Both the position numbers and the translations under genes were made by a program. A DNA stretch of 64,000 nt from Halobacterium rubrum (GTDB lineage: Archaea > Halobacteriota > Halobacteria > Halobacteriales > Halobacteriaceae): contig NZ_JAJQQZ010000001.1 of assembly GCF_021729015.1 (NCBI RefSeq), positions 310,001 to 374,000 of the forward strand, given 5' to 3'. Shown here in pieces: positions 6,469 through 53,359 of the stretch (its first letter is position 1; every line of letters starts with the position of its first letter). The notes beneath the pieces are model-generated. The model was not told the DNA's origin. It made no database searches and worked only from the letters and a program-made list of their open reading frames with translations.

Positions 6469-6620
6469 GGGTGTCCTACGCGCCCGCCGCGAAAACGTGT
6501 TGTGCTAGTGATTACTTCGGGCGGGGGACGCGGAGCGGTCGGCGTCGCTTCGAACAGGTGGGGCTGTCGTAATGAAAGGCATTTGGCCCTCGGTCCCGCA
6601 GTGTCGGGCAAGAGCAACGC

Positions 6621-9287
6621 ATGGGCCAGCAAGAAGCCACCTACGACCACCGAACGATCGAGCAGCGCTGGCAGCGCGAGTGGGACGACGCCGACGTCTT
6701 CCGGGTGCCCGACGACGCCGAGGACCCCGAGTACGTGCTGGCGATGTTCCCGTACACGTCCGGCGAGCTCCACATGGGCCACGTCCGGAACTACGCCATC
6801 ACCGACGCCTTCGCGCGGTACCGCCGGATGGACGGCGAGGAAGTCCTGCACCCGATGGGGTGGGACTCGTTCGGGCTGCCCGCCGAGAACGCCGCCGAGG
6901 AGCGCGACACCAACCCCCGAGAGTGGACCGAGCGCTGCATCGAGCAGATGCGCGACCAGTTCGAGTCGCTGGGCTTCGGCTACGACTGGGAGCGCGAGGT
7001 CACGACCTGCGACCCCGACTACTACAAGTGGAACCAGTGGCTGTTCAACGAGTTCCGCGACGCCGGCCTCGTCGACCGGCAGGCCGCGACGGTGAACTGG
7101 TGTCCGTCCTGCGAGACGGTGCTGGCCGACGAGCAGGTCGAGGGCGACGACGAGCTGTGCTGGCGGTGTGACACGCCCGTCACCGAGCGCGACCTCGACC
7201 AGTGGTTCTTCAAGACCACCGAGTACGCCGACGACCTGCTGGACTCCATCGACGAACTGGACGGCTGGCCGACGAACGTCCGGGACATGCAGCGCAACTG
7301 GATCGGCCGCACCGACGGCGCCGAAGTGCCGTTCACGCTGCACGCGCCCGACGGCGACGAAGAGGTCGTCGCGTTCACGACCCGGCTGGACACCATCCAC
7401 GGTGCGACGTACTTCGCGCTGGCGCCCGACCACCCGCTGGCCGAGGCCGCGGCCGAGCGCGACGACGACGTCGCGCACTTCGTCGACCACGTCGCCGACC
7501 CCGAGGGCGACGAGCCCCAGGGCGTCGAGACCGATATCACGGCCACGAACCCCGCGACCGGCGAGGAGATTCCGGTCTTCGTCGCGGACTTCGTGCTCTC
7601 GGACGTCGGTACGGGCGCGCTGATGGCGGTGCCCGCTCACGACGAGCGCGACCACGAGTTCGCGCAGAACCACGACGTCGAAATCCGGCAGGTCGTCGCA
7701 CCCGAGGACGACGACGACGACGAGGAAGTGGACGTCGAGGAGGCCGCGTTCACGGACGACGGCGTGCTCGTGAACTCCGGGGACTACACCGGCCTCTCCA
7801 GCGAGGCGGCCCGCGAGGAGCTGACCGCGGACGTCGACGGCGCCGAGTCTGCCGTCCAGTACCAGCTCCGCGACTGGGGGGTCTCCCGACAGCGCTACTG
7901 GGGGACGCCCATCCCCATCGTGCACTGCGAGGACTGCGGCCCGGTCTCCGTGCCCGACGAGGACCTGCCAGTGGAGCTGCCGGAGTTCGTTCACACGACC
8001 GGCAACCCTCTGGACGCCGCCGACGACTGGAAGCACACCGCGTGCCCCGACTGTGGGGAGCCCGCCGTCCGGGAGACCGACACGATGGACACGTTCGTCG
8101 ACTCCTCGTGGTACTTCCTGCGGTTCACGTCGCCGGATCTCGAGGACGCCCCGTTCGACGTCGAGCGCGCGAACGACTGGATGCCCGTCGACGAGTACGT
8201 CGGCGGCATCGAGCACGCCGTGATGCACCTGCTGTACTCGCGGTTCGTGACGAAGGCGTTCGCCGACCTCGACATGCTCGACCACCGCGAGCCCTTCGAG
8301 TCGCTGACCACGCAGGGGATGGTGCTCGGCGAGGACGGCACGAAGATGTCCAAATCGAAGGGCAACGGCGTCTCCCCCGAGCGCATCGTCTCCGAGTACG
8401 GCGCCGACACCGCGCGGCTGTTCACGCTGCGCGCGGCCCGCCCGGACAAGGACTTCCCGTGGAGCGAGGAGGGCGTCCGGTCCAGCCGCGCGTTCCTCGA
8501 GCGCCTGCTGGCGATGGCCCGCGAGGTCGACGCCGACGCGACCGACGCCGACAGCGACCTCGCCCCGGCCGGCGAGTACGTCGCCCGTGAAACCGCCGCG
8601 ACCGTCGACGCCGCCACCGACCACTTCGACGAGATGGAGTTCAACCGCGCGGTCCAGGCGGTCGACGAACTGGTGTCGCTGCTGGTCCGGTACCGCGACC
8701 GCGACGACACCGAGGACGCGGTCGTCGCGCGCGGCGTCGAGGTCGCCGTGAAGCTGCTGGCGCCCATCGCGCCCCACGTCGCCGAGGAGTGCTGGACGGC
8801 GCTGGGCGGCGACGGCTTCGTCGCGGAGGCCGACTGGCCGACGCCCGCACGCGACGTCAGCGACCACGACCGGGCGACCCGACTGGTCGAGCAGACCCGC
8901 GAGGACGTCCGGGACATCGTCGACACCGCCGGCATCGAGGACCCGACCGGCGTCGACGTCGTCACGGCGCCCGAGTGGATGTACGACGTCCTCGAACTCG
9001 CGAAGGACGCCGACGGCGACGTCGTCGGCTCCGTGATGAGCGACGAGGACCTCCGGCAGCGCGGCGAGGACGCCGCCGACTACGCGAAGGACCTCGCCGC
9101 GCAGGCGCCGGCGTTCCCCGACGTCCTCGGGCCGGACGAGGAGCGGGAGACGCTGGAGCGCGCGGCGTGGCTCGTCGAGTCCGAGTTCGAGGCGCCGGTG
9201 CGCGTGCTCGCCGCCGACGAAGCGGACGACGACGTCGCGAGCAAGGCCGAACCCGGCCGCCCTGCCATCCACGTCCACGAAGGCTGA
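6621..9287 (+). CDS. leuS: leucine--tRNA ligase
   Basis: 888 aa class Ia synthetase. ATP signatures are HMGH at residues 51-54 and KMSKS at 575-579. The body looks bacterial: GWDSFGLPAENAAEE, a zinc region with CPSC and CWRC, the editing insert beginning after NWIGRTDGAEVPFTLHAP, and the TFVDSSWYFLRF motif. The last part, from about residue 755, carries an extended region (TGVDVVTAPEWMYDVLELAK onward) like archaeal C-terminal tRNA-binding domains. This combination of bacterial core and archaeal C-terminus has been described for haloarchaeal LeuRS. ATG 6621 is the natural start. Confidence 0.95.
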   Translation: MGQQEATYDHRTIEQRWQREWDDADVFRVPDDAEDPEYVLAMFPYTSGELHMGHVRNYAITDAFARYRRMDGEEVLHPMGWDSFGLPAENAAEERDTNPREWTERCIEQMRDQFESLGFGYDWEREVTTCDPDYYKWNQWLFNEFRDAGLVDRQAATVNWCPSCETVLADEQVEGDDELCWRCDTPVTERDLDQWFFKTTEYADDLLDSIDELDGWPTNVRDMQRNWIGRTDGAEVPFTLHAPDGDEEVVAFTTRLDTIHGATYFALAPDHPLAEAAAERDDDVAHFVDHVADPEGDEPQGVETDITATNPATGEEIPVFVADFVLSDVGTGALMAVPAHDERDHEFAQNHDVEIRQVVAPEDDDDDEEVDVEEAAFTDDGVLVNSGDYTGLSSEAAREELTADVDGAESAVQYQLRDWGVSRQRYWGTPIPIVHCEDCGPVSVPDEDLPVELPEFVHTTGNPLDAADDWKHTACPDCGEPAVRETDTMDTFVDSSWYFLRFTSPDLEDAPFDVERANDWMPVDEYVGGIEHAVMHLLYSRFVTKAFADLDMLDHREPFESLTTQGMVLGEDGTKMSKSKGNGVSPERIVSEYGADTARLFTLRAARPDKDFPWSEEGVRSSRAFLERLLAMAREVDADATDADSDLAPAGEYVARETAATVDAATDHFDEMEFNRAVQAVDELVSLLVRYRDRDDTEDAVVARGVEVAVKLLAPIAPHVAEECWTALGGDGFVAEADWPTPARDVSDHDRATRLVEQTREDVRDIVDTAGIEDPTGVDVVTAPEWMYDVLELAKDADGDVVGSVMSDEDLRQRGEDAADYAKDLAAQAPAFPDVLGPDEERETLERAAWLVESEFEAPVRVLAADEADDDVASKAEPGRPAIHVHEG

Positions 9288-45736: not shown

Positions 45737-46480
45737 ATGGAGACGACAACGACCGCCGCACTCGTCGGCGTCGCCGGCGGCGCCGGCGCCACCCGTCTCG
45801 CCACCGAGACTGCCGCCGTGCTCGCGCGGGACGGCGCCAGCGTCGGCGTCCTCGACGCCGCACTCGCTACGCAGGGACTCTCACAGCACGTGGCCGGGCG
45901 CATCGACCCCGACGCCGCCGCAGTCCTCGCCGGTGACGCCGACCCCGCCGACGCCCGCCACGACCTCGCCCCGGACGCCCCCGGCGACGTGGCCGCGTAT
46001 CCGGCGTTCGCGCCGTTCACGCGCGTCGCCGAGGCGAAGACTACGGAGGCCGCCCAGCGGTTCGAGGCTGTCCTCGACGACCTCGCAGCGACCCACCACT
46101 ACGTGCTCGTGGACACGCCGCCGGTTGCCGCCAACCAGTCCGTCGCCGCCGTCACCGCCAGCGACGCCGTCGCTGCCGTGGTGCCACCCGGTAACCGCGG
46201 CGCCGACAGCCTCCAGCGCGTCCGCGGCCGCCTCGCCGACGTCGGCGCCGACTGCGACCACGTCGTCGCCAACCGGACCCAGACAGCACCGCCGGACGCG
46301 GGCCTCGCTGTCCCCGAACACGACGAGACGGGGATTCCCGACGCGCCCGTCGCGCTCGACGGCACCGACGCCTTCACCGAGTCGGTCGTGGCGCTCGCCG
46401 AGACGCTGTTCGAGACGACCGTCGACGTCGACTTCGAGGACGACTCCGTGCTCGACGCCGCCCGCGAGAAGCTAGCCTGA
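45737..46480 (+). CDS. ParA/MinD-superfamily protein with lysine-less P-loop
   Basis: 247 aa. The fold is that of ParA/MinD ATPases: the P-loop position is GVAGGAGATRLATETAAVLA (residues 11-30), where canonical members have KGGxGKT; neither the signature lysine nor the P-loop lysine is present. Other pieces remain: VGVLDAALATQGLSQHVAGR and HHYVLVDTPPVAANQSVAAV (the DTPP strand), and AAVVPPGNRGADSLQRVRGR. ATP use may be lost or altered; haloarchaea have similar GGAGxTR proteins. Its 3' end overlaps that of the convergent gene by nine bases. Function unknown. Confidence 0.75.
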   Translation: METTTTAALVGVAGGAGATRLATETAAVLARDGASVGVLDAALATQGLSQHVAGRIDPDAAAVLAGDADPADARHDLAPDAPGDVAAYPAFAPFTRVAEAKTTEAAQRFEAVLDDLAATHHYVLVDTPPVAANQSVAAVTASDAVAAVVPPGNRGADSLQRVRGRLADVGADCDHVVANRTQTAPPDAGLAVPEHDETGIPDAPVALDGTDAFTESVVALAETLFETTVDVDFEDDSVLDAAREKLA

Positions 46481-46978
46481 CTCGGGGAGCGTCGCGTCCA
46501 GCGCGTCCCGCTTCGCGACCATCGCGTCCTCGCCGGGAGACAGCGTACTCTCCACCGCCTCGGCCGCCCCCGACAGCCGGTCGTGGGTGGCGACGTACGC
46601 CGCGAGCGCGAACTCGCGCTCGCTGGCGTCAGTCAGCGCGAGCGCGTCTGCCCGCGACAGCTCGGCGTCCAGCCAGTCCTCGAGCACGTCGCGCTGCAGC
46701 GGCGAGAACGGCGTCAGTCCCTCGAACCCCAGCCGGTGGAGGCACTTCGCCGTCGTCGTCGGTGCGAGGCCCACCTCGTTGGCCGCGTCGCCGACGCTCC
46801 CGCCGGCCGCGTACGCCTCAGCGAGGTCGGCGGCCGCCTCCGCCCCACAGGGCAGGTCGTCGGCGTACTCCGCCAGCCGCTCGGCCAGCGACGCCGCCGT
46901 GCGGTCGACACTCGCCACGCCGCGCTCGCGCTGGCTGGTCGTCACCGCCACCCCCTCCGCGATGTCCGACAGTCCCAT
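46472..46978 (-). CDS. HTH-containing small protein divergent from tfb
   Basis: 168 aa from ATG 46978, giving MGLSDIAEGVAVTTSQRERG; a longer upstream frame exists but would run through the promoter. SLAERLAEYADDLPCGAEAA is followed by a helix-turn-helix-like segment GSVGDAANEVGLAPTTTAKC LHRLGFEG and an acidic C-terminal helical part (LSRADALALTDASEREFALA). It matches a haloarchaeal family known only as a DUF. Divergent from tfb and sharing a central palindrome with it, so it may be an autoregulator. That is inference. Confidence 0.72.
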   Translation of the reverse strand: MGLSDIAEGVAVTTSQRERGVASVDRTAASLAERLAEYADDLPCGAEAAADLAEAYAAGGSVGDAANEVGLAPTTTAKCLHRLGFEGLTPFSPLQRDVLEDWLDAELSRADALALTDASEREFALAAYVATHDRLSGAAEAVESTLSPGEDAMVAKRDALDATLPESG

Positions 46979-47151: not shown

Positions 47152-48015
47152 ATGAGTCAGGCACAGTGCTGCCCCGAGTGTCAGGGAACCGTCCGCGAAC
47201 AGGACACCGAACGCGTCTGCGTCGACTGCGGCCTCGTCGTCGACGAGGACCGAATCGACCGGGGCCCCGAGTGGCGGACGTTCGGCGACGACTCCGAACG
47301 CAACCCCGAACGCACCGGCGCGCCGCTCACGCGCTCCCGGCACGACCGCGGGCTCTCCACCGAGATCGGTCGCTCGACCCGGCTGAAGGGCCGCAAGCGC
47401 CGGAAGTTCGCGCGGCTCCGCCGCCAGCACAGGCGCGCCACCATCTCCTCGAAGGCCGAACGCAACCAGGTGTACGGCTTCACCGAGATCCGGCGGCTCG
47501 TCAGCACGCTCGGGCTGCCGCGCAGCGTCCGCGACCAGGCGTGTGCGCTGTTCGACTCCGCGCAGAGCGAGGACCTGCTCCGCGGCCGCACCATCGAGGG
47601 GTTCGCGGCCGCCGGCGTCTACGCCGTCTGCCGCACGAACGGTGTCTCCCGCACGCTCGGCGAGGTCGCGGCGGCCGCGCGCGCCGACGAGAACGAACTC
47701 ACCGCTGCCTACGACGCCATGAACACCGAACTCGGCCTCCCCACCGGCCCCATCGACCCCCGCGATTACCTGCCCCGGTACGCCGACACCCTCGACCTCC
47801 CCAGCGACGTCGAACACCGCGCTCGCGCGTTCGTCGACGACCTCGAAGCGGCCGGCGCGGTCTCCGGTCGCAACCCCAGCGGGGTCGCCGCCGCCTGCCT
47901 CTACACGGCCGCCGCCGACACCGACCACGCCGTCACGCAGGCCGAGGCGGCCGACGTCGCGGACGTGACGCCCGTCACGCTCCGCACCACCCACTACGAG
48001 CTCCGGCAGGACTGA
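47152..48015 (+). CDS. tfb: transcription initiation factor TFB
   Basis: 287 aa, one of the several TFIIB homologues of haloarchaea; recruits RNA polymerase to TBP-bound promoters. N-terminal zinc ribbon CCPECQGTVREQDTERVCVD CGLVVDEDRIDRGPEW. B-finger/linker with RTGAPLTRSRHDRGLSTEIG. Two cyclin-like repeats: residues about 95-185 (STLGLPRSVRDQACALFDSA) and about 190-285 (YADTLDLPSDVEHRARAFVD; NPSGVAAACLYTAA), ending with a recognition helix VTPVTLRTTHYELRQD. Haloarchaea carry up to seven or more TFBs; which one this is cannot be told. Its 3' end overlaps the convergent ATPase gene by 22 bases. Confidence 0.95.
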   Translation: MSQAQCCPECQGTVREQDTERVCVDCGLVVDEDRIDRGPEWRTFGDDSERNPERTGAPLTRSRHDRGLSTEIGRSTRLKGRKRRKFARLRRQHRRATISSKAERNQVYGFTEIRRLVSTLGLPRSVRDQACALFDSAQSEDLLRGRTIEGFAAAGVYAVCRTNGVSRTLGEVAAAARADENELTAAYDAMNTELGLPTGPIDPRDYLPRYADTLDLPSDVEHRARAFVDDLEAAGAVSGRNPSGVAAACLYTAAADTDHAVTQAEAADVADVTPVTLRTTHYELRQD

Positions 48016-48653
48016 ACCAGCGCCCCGAGTTCTGCGAACCGTCCGGCTGCAGTCGACTCCGCCGCGACCGCACGCACCGGCAGCCCCGCCGACAGGGCTC
48101 GTTCGAGGGGCCCGGACTCGGGGACCGCGACTGCGGGCGCGCCGAGCGCGTCGGCCACCCGGTTGCCGCCCGAATCGGCGCGGTTGTACGCGACCGCCGC
48201 CAGCCCGGCGTCGAGTTCGCGGGCGAGCGACCGCACCCGGACGGCGTCGGCGAGCGCGGCGCGGTCGGGCGTCGTGACGACCACGGCGGCGTCCGCCGCG
48301 AGCAGCGGCACGCCGACGTCCGCGCGCAGGCCCGCCGGACAGTCCACGACCACGTCGCCGAACTCGCTGGCGACCGAATCGAGCACGGTCGCGAGCTTCC
48401 GGGGGTCGCCCTCGCGGGCGCCGGCGAGCGTCCGCCCACACGGAAGCACCGAGACGGCGCCGTCCGTCTCGACTGCCTCGACGGGGTCGGCGCGCCCGGC
48501 CAGCACGTCGTGGAGGTCCGGGCCGTGGTCGGCGGGGACGTCCGCCATCCCGAGGTCCGCGTCCACGAGCACGGCACCGAGCTCGGCAGCGAGGTTCACG
48601 GCGACCGTCGTCTTCCCGACGCCGCCCTTCCCGCCGACGACGGCCAGAATCAC
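47994..48653 (-). CDS. MinD/ParA-type ATPase (canonical P-loop)
   Basis: 219 aa from GTG 48653, which overlaps the stop of the upstream gene (GTGA). Complete deviant Walker A: ILAVVGGKGGVGKTTVAVNL (residues 2-21). Walker B-like VLVDADLGMADVPADH, switch DVVVDCPAGLRADVGV, and VVVTTPDRAALADAVRVRSL. It lacks the long amphipathic C-terminal helix of bacterial MinD that binds membranes, though RFAELGALVQSCRSS is short and helical. Last gene of a four-gene block of unknown function. Confidence 0.88.
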   Translation of the reverse strand: MILAVVGGKGGVGKTTVAVNLAAELGAVLVDADLGMADVPADHGPDLHDVLAGRADPVEAVETDGAVSVLPCGRTLAGAREGDPRKLATVLDSVASEFGDVVVDCPAGLRADVGVPLLAADAAVVVTTPDRAALADAVRVRSLARELDAGLAAVAYNRADSGGNRVADALGAPAVAVPESGPLERALSAGLPVRAVAAESTAAGRFAELGALVQSCRSS

Positions 48654-49186
48654 TCCTCGCCCACCCGCTCGCGGAGCACGCTCGCGCGAGCCGCCAGCGC
48701 CGACACGGCCTCCCGGTCGGCCGCCGTCTCCACGTCGGCCGTCGCTCGCGTTGAGACGTCGCCCAGCCAGTCTCGGACCGACTCGGGCAGCCCGGCGTCG
48801 GGCGCCGGCACGGCGTCTCTGGGCGGCCGCGGGTCGCCGAACTCGGCGACGGCCTCGCGGGCGTTCGGCGGCCCGTCGGCGGCGCGCTCGGTCCACGCCA
48901 CCGTCACCGGCGGCTCGCTCGGCTCGCCGGGCGTCGCGTATCCGAGCGGCCGGACCTCCCCCGGTGCGAGCACGCCCTCCCAGCCGCCGTCGTCCCAGCC
49001 CGGCGCCGGTAGTCCGTCCTCCCGCGGCGGCCACACTGGTCCCGCGCACTCGTTCGCGAGCCGAACCCGCCGCGGCTGGGTGCCGCGCTCGTCCGTTCCG
49101 CTTCCCCTCCCACCGCCGTCGTGTTCGACGCGCACCGCCACGAGCGTGACCCCGTTCCGGCGGTGTGTCTCGGTCGCTACGCGCAT
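48650..49186 (-). CDS. uncharacterised protein, partner of the MinD-type ATPase
   Basis: 178 aa. Residues about 1-100 look beta-rich (RRNGVTLVAVRVEHDGGG; RRVRLANECAGPVWPPREDG; WEGVLAPGEVRPLGYATPGE; VTVAWTERAADG), similar in style to a small Ig-like domain. The C-terminal 70 residues are helical and acidic (LPESVRDWLGDVSTRATADV; SALAARASVLRERVGEE). No known family recognised beyond a possible haloarchaeal DUF. Its stop overlaps the ATPase GTG, and it has its own TATA box inside the end of the preceding gene. Confidence 0.72.
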   Translation of the reverse strand: MRVATETHRRNGVTLVAVRVEHDGGGRGSGTDERGTQPRRVRLANECAGPVWPPREDGLPAPGWDDGGWEGVLAPGEVRPLGYATPGEPSEPPVTVAWTERAADGPPNAREAVAEFGDPRPPRDAVPAPDAGLPESVRDWLGDVSTRATADVETAADREAVSALAARASVLRERVGEE

Positions 49187-49210
49187 ACCGTCGGTGGCCT
49201 CCTTCCCGTG

Positions 49211-49217
49211 CTTAAAC
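49211..49217 (-). promoter_or_regulatory. internal TATA box of the ATPase gene block
   Basis: On the minus strand GTTTAAG, 27 bases before ATG 49186. It overlaps the TAA stop (49212-49214) of the upstream coiled-coil gene, so the last two genes can be expressed apart from the first two. Confidence 0.55.
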
Positions 49218-50042
49218 TTCTACCAGCGCCACGGGCGCGTCCAGCGCTGCACTCGCACGGGTCGCGTTCGAGAACAGGCTCGACCCCACCACGAGTGGCG
49301 CGCCCGGCGCAGCGAGTCTGGCGACGGCGGCCCCGGCGACCCAGTTCGGCCCCTCGAAGGCGTCCGGGCCCGTCGGCTCGTCAGCGAACGGCAGCGCGGC
49401 GAGCGCCCGCTGGAACCGCTCACCCCACCGCTCGGCCAGTGCTCGCCGCGCGTCCCGCCGCAGGTTCGCCAGCCGGTCCTCCAGCGACAGCCTGCGCTCC
49501 CGGGCGTCCCGTGCCTCCCGGGCCCGCCGCCTCGCCCGTTCGAGCGCCTCCTGCGCCGCGTGGTGTTCCGTCTCCGCCGCCGCCAGCTCCCGGTTCGCGT
49601 CTGCGAGCGCCTCCTCGGCGGCGGCGGCGTCAGCGTCACCGACGCCCCGGCGCGCCTCGACGCGACCGCTCACGCGCGCCACTCGCTCGCGGAGCCGCTC
49701 GACGTCTTCGGCCGTCTCGGCGACTCGTTCGCGGGCGCCGGCGAGGTCGACCGACGCCACCGAGACCTCGGCGAGCTCGGCTTCGACGGCCCGCAGGTCG
49801 CCGTCGTACTCGGTCCTCGCGCCCCGGCTCCGCGCCGCGGCTGCCAGCGCCGCCCGAACCGGCACGCTGACCTCCCTGTCCAGGACGCCGACGTGCTCGT
49901 GGACCGCGGTGGGGCGCTGACTGCACACTCGGTCGTCGTCGGGGTCGCGGACCGCAGCGGCCACCTCGCTGGCGGTCACGTCCACCGACCGCAGGTCGAC
50001 CGTCCGGCCCCGCCGCTGGACGCCGCCGAGCGCGACCTTCAC
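49212..50042 (-). CDS. coiled-coil protein of the ATPase gene block
   Basis: 276 aa. N-terminal about 70 residues are globular (KVALGGVQRRGRTVDLRSVD; VTASEVAAAVRDPDDDRVCS). Residues about 80-215 are a continuous charged coiled coil (VDLAGARERVAETAEDVERL; LADANRELAAAETEHHAAQE; LERARRRAREARDARERRLS). The last 60 residues form a second globular part (NWVAGAAVARLAAPGAPLVV). The layout recalls structural or chromosome-associated coiled-coil partners of ParA/MinD ATPases, but no SMC-type ATPase motif is present. It overlaps the preceding gene by four bases (ATGA). Confidence 0.72.
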   Translation of the reverse strand: MKVALGGVQRRGRTVDLRSVDVTASEVAAAVRDPDDDRVCSQRPTAVHEHVGVLDREVSVPVRAALAAAARSRGARTEYDGDLRAVEAELAEVSVASVDLAGARERVAETAEDVERLRERVARVSGRVEARRGVGDADAAAAEEALADANRELAAAETEHHAAQEALERARRRAREARDARERRLSLEDRLANLRRDARRALAERWGERFQRALAALPFADEPTGPDAFEGPNWVAGAAVARLAAPGAPLVVGSSLFSNATRASAALDAPVALVEV

Positions 50043-50395
50043 AGCTCGCTGTCCCGCAGCGACTCGGGGTCCGGATGCTCCTCGCTGCCCGCCGCGAACT
50101 TCGCGTACGGCGTGCTCGCCGCGTCCCGGGCCTCGTAGGCCTCGGCGGCCGACCGCACGCGCTCGGGGGCGTCGGCGAACTCGTTGAACGCCGCCGTGCG
50201 CTCGACCTGCACGTCGTCGCCGTGTTTCTCCCGCAGCCGAAGCGCCTGGAACGCGCCGAACTCCGTCTCCCGCAGCAACGCGGCGCGCCCGAACCGCCGG
50301 ACGACGCAGTCCTCGTGGGCGTCACAGACGTTCCGCAGGGTCTGGCGAGCCGCTCGCGCGTACGTCACCACGAGTAGCACTACCCGAGCTTCCAC
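50039..50395 (-). CDS. uncharacterised protein, first gene of the ATPase block
   Basis: 118 aa: VVLLVVTYARAARQTLRNVC, EDCVVRRFGRAALLRETEFG, FQALRLREKHGDDVQVERTA, then a helical acidic tail. Small alpha/beta protein without a known motif. An A/T-rich TATA-like TAACTAATTTTT (minus strand, 50404-50415) is only 9-20 bases before ATG 50395, so transcription may begin inside and a GTG at 50380 or 50371 may be the true start. The start is therefore uncertain by up to eight codons. Confidence 0.68.
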   Translation of the reverse strand: MEARVVLLVVTYARAARQTLRNVCDAHEDCVVRRFGRAALLRETEFGAFQALRLREKHGDDVQVERTAAFNEFADAPERVRSAAEAYEARDAASTPYAKFAAGSEEHPDPESLRDSEL

Positions 50396-50429: not shown

Positions 50430-50711
50430 TCAAGTCGCGTCGAGGACGTCGAAATCGGGGACGGCTCCGTCCACTCGCGCCGCGACCCGGTCTCTCGCAG
50501 TCTCGGCGTCCGGCGCCACGACCACCACGCCCTCCACGGCTGGATCGCCGGTCGCCCGGTACGCGGACAGGCCGTCCTCGCCCTCGAACTCCGTCGCGTA
50601 CGTCCGCAACACGCCCAGCACGCGGTCCTCGACGTCCTCGAGGCTCGCCTCGCCGTCCTCGAAGTCCGCCAGCGCGTCCTCGACGTTCCGGAGCGCAGAG
50701 ATTCGGTCCAT
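50430..50711 (-). CDS. small acidic protein coupled to mcm
   Basis: 93 aa: MDRISALRNVEDALADFEDG, EASLEDVEDRVLGVLRTYAT, then a beta-rich end VEGVVVVAPDAETARDRVAA. Its ATG overlaps the mcm stop by one base (TGATG), so it is translated from the same message. It resembles no characterised replication factor; the N-terminal half could be an MCM-interaction helix pair, but this is only inference from coupling. Confidence 0.75.
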   Translation of the reverse strand: MDRISALRNVEDALADFEDGEASLEDVEDRVLGVLRTYATEFEGEDGLSAYRATGDPAVEGVVVVAPDAETARDRVAARVDGAVPDFDVLDAT

Positions 50712-53359
50712 CAGATCGAGCGCAGGTGGTCCTTGTTCGGCTGGTAGAGCTCGCCCTTCTCCTTGAGCTTCTCTATCTCGTGTTCGGCCTTCTCGGCGTC
50801 CATCCCGACCTCCTCTGCGCGGTCGAGCACCTCCTCGACGGGGGCGCCCTCGTCGAACTCCTCCTCGATCTCGCCGATGAGCGCCTTGATGTTCTTCACG
50901 CGGTCCCGCTGGGTCTTCGACTGCCCGGTTTCGACCACGTCGGCGTCGAACTCGCCCGTCTCCGGGTCCACGCCGATGTCCTGCAGACACGACCGCACGA
51001 TGGAGATGACGCGGTCGGCGTCCTCCTGCTCGACCGTGTCGGAGAGCCGCAGCCGCGCGGAGGCCTCCGCCAGCCGCACGATTGCCTCCAGCTGGCGGGC
51101 CGTGACCGGCACGGGCGCGTCCTCGTCGGCGCCCTTCGACCGCAGGTCCACGTAGAAGTCCTCGATGGCCTGTTTGGCCTCGGCGGTCATCGTCGGGAAG
51201 CAGTTCCGGCGAGCGTACGCGATGTACTTCCGCAGCAGGTCCGGGTCGATGGCCGGCGCCACCTCCTCCGTCTGGCTGTCGATCTCCTCCTCGCTGTAGT
51301 TCGCGTTCGCGAGCTGCTCGTTCTGCGTGTTCAGCTCCCCGGCGTAGTTCGTCTGCAGGATGTGCTCGGCGAGCGCCGCGTCCTCCTCGGGGTCGGGCTC
51401 GTCCGTCACCGTGAAGATCAAGTCGAACCGCGAGATGAGCGCCGGCTCCAGGTCGATCTGCTCGCCGATCGGTTCGTACTGGTCGAATCGCCCGTACTTC
51501 GGGTTCGCCGCCCCCAGCAGCGAACACCGCGCCTTCAGCGTCGCGTTGATGCCCGCCTTCGAGATCGAGATCTTCTGCTGTTCGAGCGCCTCGTGCATCG
51601 CCGACCGGTCGTCGTCGGCCATCTTGTCCAGCTCGTCGACCGCCGCCACGCCGTTGTCCGCGAGCACGAGCGCGCCCGCCTCCAGCGTCCACTGCTGGCC
51701 GTCGCCGAAGTCGTCGCGTACAGCTGCGGCCGTGAGGCCCGCCGCTGAGGACCCTTTCCCGGAGGTGTAGACCGAGCGCGGCGCGATGTTCTGGACGTAC
51801 GAAATCATCTGGGAGTTGTGCGAGACCACGCCGTCTGTGAGGTAGTTGTGCGTCCCCTCGACTTCGAGGTCGTACACCCACTCCTCGTCGGTCTCGACCT
51901 CTTCGATAGTCTCGATGCGAGTCCATTCGACACTCTCTGAGCTTTCCTCCTCGGAGAGTGGGGCTGGAGCGCGCTCATGCACGACCCCACCGTCGGTTGC
52001 GACCTGACTCGGGTCGTAGCCGTCTGGTTCCACTCCCACGAACTGCCCGGGTTCGAGGTCGTCGGCTCGGACTGCTTCGGGGCCTTGCGAACCCGGGACG
52101 AACAGCGGGTGGCTCGGCGTGACGGTGACCTCGTGGCCGTTGGCCGTTCGGACGCGGTACATCGTCTCCGGCGCCTCGCGCTTCCAGACCTTCGTCGCGC
52201 GGCGCTGCACGAGCGTGCCGTCCGGTGCGAGCGACGGAACCGCGAGGTCGGCGTCGTCCCAGACGCCGTCGTCGACGGGCTTCGGGTCGTCGAGATTCGA
52301 CTCGACGAGGTCTCGAATCTCGTGTTCACTGCCGTCCGCGAGCGTCACAGTGGTATCGCCGCGCACGCACTTCCCGGTACCCGGGTCCCCTATCAGCAGC
52401 ATGTGGAGGTCGCCGCGAATGCGGGATTCGTCCGGGAGGTGTTTGGTGACGCCGGAGAACAACTGGAGGATCATCGCGAGTTTGGCTTCCCGGTGGCCGT
52501 AGATGGCGGGCGCCATCGAGTCGACCATCTCCTCGTAGATGTCGTCGTGGTCGGAGAGCTCGATGATCTCTTTTTTGTCCTCCTCGGTGATGTTCATCTC
52601 GTCGAACTCGGCGTCCTCGATGACGACCGACGACCCCTCCATGTAGTGTTCGAAGACGGGGGAGTCGGTGGCCTCCTCGCTCTGGTCGAGGCGGAGGACG
52701 CCGGTGACGGTGACGTGGTCGCCGGGCGTGACTTCGCCGGTGGCGTCGTCCTCGATGTGGATGTCGATGCTCTGGGGGGTTTCGCCACCCGCCAGCCCCT
52801 CGGGGGACTCCTGCACGCGGAGCTTCTGGGAGTCGACGAACTCCGAGCGGTCGGGGTCGAGCTTGAAGGGGCCCTGGCGCTCGCAGGACTCGCACTGGTA
52901 GGGCTCCTGGAAGCCGGCGTCGCCCTGCGGGACTTCGGTCTCGGCGCCGCAGCGCTGGCAGACGAAGACGGCGCGCTGGATCTTCGGCATGACGTCGGTC
53001 GCCTTCCGCACCATCCCCTGCACGGAGACGAGCGTGTTGAGGTGCTCGGCCCGAATCTCCCGAATTTCGGTGTGCTCGGAGAGGCCCTGGACGCGGACGT
53101 GGGCCTGTCCGAGGCTGACGTCGACGGGGAGGTCGTAGAGCCGCAGGGCCTCCTCGGCGGCCTCCTGGAGCTGGTCGGGGTGGTTGATGTAGTCGTCGGC
53201 CAGGTCGGGGTCCATCTGGTAGAGGTCCCGCCAGTCCAGCTCGAGCGACTTCGACTCGCGGGGGTACTCGCGCGCGAGCTGCGCGACGTCCTCGCTGTAG
53301 TACCGGCGGTAGAACTCCTCGAATCGGTCGACGAGCTCCTGGTTGGCGGCCTGGGCCAT
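50711..53359 (-). CDS. mcm: replicative DNA helicase MCM, interrupted by an intein
   Basis: 882 aa as translated, about 697 aa after removal of the intein at residues 331-515. N-terminal domain with zinc site CQRC...CESC (about 129-152) and OB-fold beta-hairpin region. AAA+ core: Walker A LLIGDPGTGK, split by the intein directly after the Lys; Walker B LVLADNGVAAVDELDKM; sensor/ATPase LLGAANPKYGRFDQY; arginine finger LISRFDLIF. C-terminal winged-helix part (EIEEEFDEGAPVEEVLDRAE). ATG 53359 gives MAQAANQELVDRFEEFYRRY. A TATA-like TTCTTAGG lies about 30 bases upstream. Followed by a coupled 93-aa gene. Confidence 0.96.
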   Translation of the reverse strand: MAQAANQELVDRFEEFYRRYYSEDVAQLAREYPRESKSLELDWRDLYQMDPDLADDYINHPDQLQEAAEEALRLYDLPVDVSLGQAHVRVQGLSEHTEIREIRAEHLNTLVSVQGMVRKATDVMPKIQRAVFVCQRCGAETEVPQGDAGFQEPYQCESCERQGPFKLDPDRSEFVDSQKLRVQESPEGLAGGETPQSIDIHIEDDATGEVTPGDHVTVTGVLRLDQSEEATDSPVFEHYMEGSSVVIEDAEFDEMNITEEDKKEIIELSDHDDIYEEMVDSMAPAIYGHREAKLAMILQLFSGVTKHLPDESRIRGDLHMLLIGDPGTGKCVRGDTTVTLADGSEHEIRDLVESNLDDPKPVDDGVWDDADLAVPSLAPDGTLVQRRATKVWKREAPETMYRVRTANGHEVTVTPSHPLFVPGSQGPEAVRADDLEPGQFVGVEPDGYDPSQVATDGGVVHERAPAPLSEEESSESVEWTRIETIEEVETDEEWVYDLEVEGTHNYLTDGVVSHNSQMISYVQNIAPRSVYTSGKGSSAAGLTAAAVRDDFGDGQQWTLEAGALVLADNGVAAVDELDKMADDDRSAMHEALEQQKISISKAGINATLKARCSLLGAANPKYGRFDQYEPIGEQIDLEPALISRFDLIFTVTDEPDPEEDAALAEHILQTNYAGELNTQNEQLANANYSEEEIDSQTEEVAPAIDPDLLRKYIAYARRNCFPTMTAEAKQAIEDFYVDLRSKGADEDAPVPVTARQLEAIVRLAEASARLRLSDTVEQEDADRVISIVRSCLQDIGVDPETGEFDADVVETGQSKTQRDRVKNIKALIGEIEEEFDEGAPVEEVLDRAEEVGMDAEKAEHEIEKLKEKGELYQPNKDHLRSI
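51815..52369 (-). other. mini-intein in the MCM Walker A loop (185 aa)
   Basis: Begins with Cys after GDPGTGK (CVRGDTTVTLADGSEHEIRD, block A) and ends VSHN before Ser (SQMISYV). Block B: HEVTVTPSHPLFVPGSQG. Block F and G: EWVYDLEVEGTHNYLTDGVV SHN. With 185 residues there is no room for a homing endonuclease, so it is a splicing-only mini-intein. Nucleophiles Cys1, Asn185 and Ser+1 are intact, as is the penultimate His, so splicing should work. Insertion before the Walker A Ser is a known intein site in archaeal MCM. Confidence 0.93.

Follow-up and report, generated by a model that had tools for sequence, protein, structure and literature searches.

Among ATPases of the ParA/MinD family, the closest described counterparts of the protein considered here are TadZ/CpaE of bacterial Tad pili and the MinD paralogues of haloarchaea. 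CpaE is needed for localization of the secretin (PMC13170226). In Haloferax, MinD2 and MinD4 position the archaellum and the chemosensory arrays (PMC11588486, PMC11621097), and MinD2 shares its operon with a partner whose function is unknown (PMC11588486). The functions of MinD1 to MinD3 are stated to be undescribed (PMC11621097); removing all four minD genes leaves division and growth unaffected (PMC11588486), and the motility defect of the delta-minD1/2/3/4 strain is indistinguishable from that of the delta-minD2/4 strain (PMC11621097). Here, we describe a four-gene block at 47994-50395 of a 64,000-nt stretch of the Halobacterium rubrum genome (assembly GCF_021729015.1, contig NZ_JAJQQZ010000001.1, positions 310,001 to 374,000), referred to below as the window. 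The block ends in a gene for an ATPase that, judging from gene order, is the orthologue of Haloferax MinD1.

The block is made up of two separable gene pairs, DUF7855-DUF7856 (module A) and DUF7857-MinD1 (module B). On balance, we consider it probable that the two pairs are separate transcription units and that module B is a ParA/MinD ATP switch with a dedicated partner, serving a pilus machine that is encoded elsewhere in the genome. The elements of the locus are as follows.

50039..50395, minus strand: DUF7855 (PF25253), small alpha/beta protein of 118 aa, first gene of module A (Pfam E = 2e-55)
49212..50042, minus strand: DUF7856 (PF25254), alpha/beta head plus coiled coil, 276 aa, second gene of module A (Pfam E = 4.5e-75)
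49206..49216 (approximate), minus strand: box A TTTAAG, putative internal promoter 5' of DUF7857 (from the sequence and its conservation in relatives)
48650..49186, minus strand: DUF7857 (PF25256), 178 aa, candidate adaptor of MinD1, module B (Pfam E = 6.6e-23)
47994..48653, minus strand: MinD1, ParA/MinD ATPase of 219 aa, module B (from sequence and synteny with HVO_0220/HVO_0225/HVO_0226)
47152..48015, plus strand: TFB paralogue, convergent neighbour (TFIIB Pfam domains)
50430..50711, minus strand: DUF7854, small gene between DUF7855 and mcm (Pfam E = 6e-34; start codon read)

A preliminary description of the window, made from its letters, had reported four overlapped or closely spaced genes between TFB and mcm. 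All four are indeed minus-strand open reading frames (ORFs) in that position, with DUF7854 also lying between DUF7855 and mcm, and 4-bp overlaps join DUF7855 to DUF7856 and DUF7857 to MinD1. Its characterization of the first three products as alpha/beta, coiled-coil, and beta-plus-helix proteins fits the Pfam families, whose scores exceed the gathering cut-offs (186.3 versus 27 bits for DUF7855, 253.3 versus 30.2 for DUF7856, and 82 versus 27 for DUF7857), as well as the AlphaFold2 models. The window has the order DUF7854-7855-7856-7857-MinD-TFB (reverse)-DUF7858 between mcm and the TFB region. This gene order is kept across haloarchaea, and the block is therefore not a chance arrangement.

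In Haloferax volcanii, mcm is HVO_0220 (PMC3972481), minD1 is HVO_0225 (PMC11588486), and the TFB used as a reference is HVO_0226 (PMC7714728). The window has mcm, four small genes, MinD, and TFB in the same number and order as HVO_0220 to HVO_0226, and the loci of Haloferax larsenii and H. elongans (L107 and L109) contain all four block genes, again in the same order. Because of this synteny, the window ATPase is identified as the orthologue of MinD1 (HVO_0225). In a tree of 84 proteins, 80 MinD1 sequences, including those of H. larsenii and H. elongans, are split with support of 92/95 from the window genome's own four MinD-like paralogues, which fall outside the MinD1 group.

That the block ends in a genuine MinD-type ATPase, as first described, is borne out by a deviant Walker A motif (GGKGGVGKT) and by DCPAG in the Walker B region. 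The P-loop starts within the first ten residues, and the Walker A lysine (GKS/GKT) is present in 80/80 sampled MinD1 proteins. The archaeal MinD model TIGR01969 matches at 117.2 bits (E = 6.6e-34), under its curated cut-off of 201.75 bits. The best solved relatives of MinD1 are the MinD structures from Pyrococcus and Archaeoglobus, along with FleN/FlhG. The gene itself is not new, as the Haloferax locus HVO_0220-HVO_0226 has the same family and the same synteny. The preliminary description had named the block a candidate for an undescribed system; the function of MinD1 is stated to be undescribed (PMC11621097), but its gene was already known as HVO_0225. The new elements are its DUF7857 partner, the arrangement in two modules, and the link to a pilus.

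The division of the block became apparent in a survey of 175 genomes of the order Halobacteriales, which represents a single sampling of that order. DUF7855 lies next to DUF7856 in 96/96 genomes that have both, and DUF7857 and MinD1 are adjacent in 102/103, the exception (G041) being a contig break. The junction between the modules, DUF7856-DUF7857, is adjacent in 87/93 genomes. DUF7857-MinD1 occurs alone of the four genes in 14 genomes, DUF7855-DUF7856 occurs alone in two, and DUF7855 occurs by itself in three. A survey of this kind had been proposed as one check on the block; it found the order kept and the genes co-occurring across the 175 genomes rather than scattered. However, the single four-gene block resolves into two pairs that come apart across genomes, and one four-gene system is rejected on these grounds. 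Among the named loci, the 4-bp stop/start overlap is found at 57/59 DUF7857-MinD1 and 51/76 DUF7855-DUF7856 junctions and at no DUF7856-DUF7857 junction.

An internal promoter before the last two genes had also been predicted, and the comparison with relatives agrees. In the window, the box A sequence TTTAAG lies ~30 nt 5' of the DUF7857 ATG, with the TAA stop of DUF7856 inside the box. In 51/72 relatives, a TTTAW box is positioned -29 to -31 from the DUF7857 start, against a shuffle expectation of 0.3, whereas 0/76 DUF7856 starts and 0/59 MinD1 starts have one. DUF7855 has a box A ~30 nt upstream of its start in 43/80 relatives. A sigma-70-type promoter scan, using a model unsuited to archaea, found nothing. 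Separate transcription of the two gene pairs is the best explanation for these patterns.

Since DUF7857 and MinD1 form a fixed pair that is translationally coupled by the 4-bp overlap and moves and duplicates jointly, DUF7857, and not the coiled-coil protein DUF7856, is by these genomic signs the partner of MinD1. The coiled coil is rejected in that role, as the gene that is coupled to MinD1 and moves with it is DUF7857. Thus, while the earlier suggestion of a spatial-organization system may well be right in the spatial part, the pairing of ATPase and coiled coil on which it was built does not hold: the ATPase travels with DUF7857.

Joint movement is seen in the MinD1 tree, where the relocated pairs of G026/G038 and G052/G163 nest in different mcm-locus clades; there have thus been at least two independent departures of DUF7857 together with MinD1 from the mcm locus. 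A third MinD1 clade has moved to other sites, and where a second copy exists, in G054 and G098, it too is a DUF7857-MinD1 pair. In the Natronomonas-type genomes (four genomes; nine loci, L069, L074, L082, L088, L102, L105, L115, L120, and L127), DUF7857 is kept, MinD1 is absent, and TFB lies directly after DUF7857. MinD1 is therefore not indispensable in these genomes, and DUF7857 has a use without it. One of them, G043, has the DUF7856 and DUF7857 frames fused in a single ORF, with the DUF7857 box A and ATG still present. At the mcm locus of G056 (L152), the sensor kinase comes directly after mcm and what is left of DUF7854, and everything from DUF7855 through the ParA-like gene described below is gone as one stretch.

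The mcm neighbourhood raises the question of whether the block has a role in DNA replication, segregation of chromosomes, or division, and the preliminary description had proposed that shape, division, and chromosome segregation be examined in deletion strains. The position between mcm and TFB is kept in most genomes, which would suit such a role. However, the pair repeatedly relocates from mcm, whole clades are without it, and Haloferax divides and grows unimpaired after the quadruple minD deletion (PMC11588486). A type IV pilus operon is what the evidence points to instead, and we consider a replication or division role to be highly improbable.

The operon in question encodes a haloarchaeal type IV pilus machine, comprising PilB, PilC, DUF7283/7284/7285/7286, DUF7310, and DUF7311. 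Presence of DUF7857 is concordant with that of DUF7311 in 166/175 genomes, and presence of MinD1 is concordant in 164/175; 0/10,000 within-family or within-genus shuffles reach these values, although one within-genus shuffle did reach the MinD1-DUF7311 value in a preceding set of 4,000. With intact full-length DUF7286 as a second marker, the concordances are 169/175 for DUF7857 and 167/175 for MinD1 (0/10,000 shuffles); remnant status of DUF7286 was set after the coverage was seen, a choice that the DUF7311 test, which has the same outcome, does not need. Among the 148 more complete genomes, left after 27 were excluded by hand, mostly for low completeness, DUF7857 is discordant in two only (G010 and G165), and G010 has a divergent DUF7857-like ORF at the expected place. 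The conclusion that DUF7857 and MinD1 are kept or lost with the DUF7311/DUF7286 pilus operon is well supported by these presence patterns.

Given that MinD1 belongs to the same family as MinD2 and MinD4, it might be supposed to position the archaellum or the chemotaxis arrays as they do (PMC11588486, PMC11621097). However, ArlD/E, used as an archaellum control, shows no within-family association with the pair (6580-6863 of 10,000 shuffles reach the observed concordance), and its concordance with MinD1, 127/175, is exactly the within-family expectation. The archaellum was rejected as a MinD1 cargo on this test. In addition, the motility defect of delta-minD1/2/3/4 is the same as that of delta-minD2/4 (PMC11621097). 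We regard this as the least probable of the explanations considered. MinD1 resembles MinD4 and MinD2-HVO_0596 in being a haloarchaeal MinD paralogue associated with surface machinery, but their cargo is the archaellum and chemosensory arrays, whereas the MinD1 signal is with the pilus operon.

The tie to the pilus could also be incidental, with both sets of dispensable surface or lifestyle genes being lost in the same genome-reduction events. The genomes are related by descent, and all of these genes are missing from many early-branching lineages, as this explanation would have it. Yet no such tie is seen for the archaellum, which is likewise a surface structure that can be dispensed with, and module A, although normally the neighbour of the pair, follows the operon less closely: of 10,000 within-genus shuffles, 43 and 155 match or exceed its concordances of 154/175 (DUF7856) and 151, respectively. 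Two genomes (G064 and G144) keep DUF7855-DUF7856 with both the pair and the operon absent. Furthermore, in 12 genomes the pair and the operon are physical neighbours, and a purely incidental tie is therefore regarded as very unlikely.

In these 12 genomes, which belong to seven genera, the DUF7857-MinD1 pair lies 3-14.4 kb from DUF7311, in neighbourhoods that include varying sets of a pilin-like DUF7382 gene, a HerA-like ATPase, DUF7310, DUF7311, and a PilB-like ATPase. Several pilus-locus copies have two membrane proteins (~370-410 aa) directly before the pair (L155:2227-4529 and L162:6448-8918); no informative family was found for them, and the second has a weak TrkA_C match. MinD-like and KaiC-like DUF7125 proteins are encoded by adjacent genes in the window genome, and in other genomes a single fused protein of this kind stands beside the pair (L160:3456-4720 and L155:886-2214). 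In the window genome, the DUF7311 operon sits on another contig, adjoining a divergent CetZ gene, and comprises DUF7310, DUF7311, a T2SSE-family ATPase (PilB), a protein of 526 aa that occupies the place of PilC and has no Pfam match, DUF7283, DUF7285, DUF7284, and DUF7286.

Genomes in which the operon has decayed have also lost the pair or retain it in a damaged form, as would be expected if the pair were useless once the pilus operon is gone. In G056, G088, G129, G115, G149, and G045, the pair is absent and the operon marker DUF7286 is only a remnant; in G129 and G045, that remnant lies beside DUF7310, and PilB and PilC are gone. G165 retains only the last 74 positions of DUF7286 (residues 927-1000), and in its pair (L192:7154-8400) DUF7857 is frameshifted and the Walker A lysine of MinD1 is replaced by threonine (GGKGGVGTS). 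This is apparently pseudogenization under way; an assembly error could cause the frameshift alone but hardly both changes.

The operon resembles pil-2 of Halobacterium salinarum R1, which has pilB2/pilC2 and three prepilins and has been described as restricted to haloarchaea (PMC4292770). Gene content and size are similar, and on these grounds the DUF7311/DUF7286 operon is putatively pil-2. In contrast to the described restriction, DUF7286 also matches in Methanosarcina acetivorans.

Overall, a functional link between DUF7857-MinD1 and the pilus is well supported by the comparative data, and a mechanism with direct contacts may be proposed from it. ATP-bound MinD1 dimers would have no membrane helix to hold them and would instead be held by DUF7857, a beta-sandwich adaptor with a tail of helices. 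MinD1-DUF7857 would then place or license the assembly of PilB/PilC at a site in the cell, much like TadZ/CpaE in the Tad pilus system of bacteria. The analogy with TadZ/CpaE makes positioning or licensing of PilB/PilC the likeliest action. Both are MinD-type ATPases with a deviant Walker A motif that are tied to a type IV pilus-like machine, in the case of MinD1 by co-occurrence and linkage. However, MinD1 is without the REC-like N-terminal domain and the amphipathic C-terminal helix of TadZ/CpaE and usually lies outside the pilus operon; by these features, it is not a member of the TadZ/CpaE family. It also differs from the MinD of the MinCDE system, which has a C-terminal amphipathic membrane-targeting helix: the sampled MinD1 relatives (216-238 aa) all end at the last helix of the ATPase core, with no membrane-targeting extension in any. 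Neither MinC nor MinE is annotated in the block, and no search was made for them.

The AlphaFold2 model of DUF7857 consists of a beta sandwich (residues 1-101) followed by C-terminal helices (pLDDT 87). That of DUF7856 has a compact head and a long antiparallel coiled coil (residues 100-134/139-205; pLDDT 95.8), for which the best Foldseek match in the PDB (E = 0.08, TM = 0.22) is not significant. Profile searches of the PDB with DUF7855, DUF7856, and DUF7857 gave no significant relative. As neither DUF7856 nor DUF7857 has a significant fold match, their functions cannot be read from the fold. An SMC/Rad50-like identity for DUF7856 was rejected; weak NCBIfam matches reflect coiled-coil similarity only, the Foldseek match is not significant, and there is no P-loop.

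Several observations weigh against MinD1-DUF7857 as the ATP switch of the pilus. Shared ancestry among the genomes is corrected for only in part by shuffling within families and genera. The Natronomonas-type genomes hold the operon and DUF7857 without MinD1, and in most genomes, including that of the window, the pair is unlinked to the operon. The search of solved structures gave no significant match for the fold of DUF7857, and no membrane-targeting helix by which MinD1 might mark a cell site was found.

The last of these would sit well with MinD1-DUF7857 being an ATP-driven assembly or regulatory factor that, for example, gates PilB or controls the expression of pilus genes, in the manner of the FlhG/FleN-type MinDs of flagella, rather than a positioning system. 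FleN/FlhG are among the best solved relatives of MinD1, and a TFB paralogue adjoins the pair at the mcm locus and at a number of the pilus loci. Such a factor would account equally for the co-occurrence and linkage, and nothing specific speaks against it; the present data do not separate it from positioning. We nevertheless consider it unlikely.

Somewhat less doubtful, though still tentative, is the idea that all four proteins form one pilus-siting system specific to haloarchaea, in which DUF7855/DUF7856 would be the scaffold, DUF7857 the bridge, and MinD1 cycling would place PilB/PilC; such a system would be a separately arisen archaeal counterpart of TadZ/CpaE. The single DUF7856/DUF7857 ORF of G043 and the usual adjacency of the modules are compatible with it. 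However, some genomes with both the pair and the operon are without DUF7855-DUF7856, which suggests that module A is at most accessory. It appears to be the usual genomic companion of the pair, with no requirement for it in the pilus link.

Around the block, the convergent TFB and MinD1 genes share 22 bp at their 3' ends, and a TGATG overlap joins the mcm stop to DUF7854. The remaining conserved neighbour is

46472-46978, minus strand: DUF7858, conserved TFB companion with weak helix-turn-helix similarity (Pfam scan)

and its order with TFB is kept in most haloarchaeal loci. Two genes away from the block, a ParA-like protein (45737-46480, plus strand) has the P-loop GVAGGAGATRLA, without a Walker A lysine, and weak Pfam matches only; a gene of this type still adjoins DUF7858 in G064. 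The mcm ORF (50711-53359, minus strand) contains an intein-like insertion (CVRGDTTVTLADG...VVSHN), and haloarchaeal mcm inteins are already known (PMC10643990). No mention of DUF7854-7858 was found in the literature searched. A phylum sample of 345 genomes contained none of the block families outside the order, save one sub-threshold match, and a viral origin of the block was rejected after a search of viral contigs that found no relative of DUF7855.

MinD1 is one of four MinD paralogues in the model haloarchaeon, and no effect of its loss has been seen on top of those of MinD2 and MinD4. A first clue to its role comes from DUF7857 as its dedicated partner and from the DUF7311/DUF7286-type pilus operon as a specific candidate for its cargo machine. 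A link to the pilus would account for the division and motility assays showing nothing for MinD1 and, if true, would mean that archaea use separate MinD-adaptor pairs for separate surface machines.

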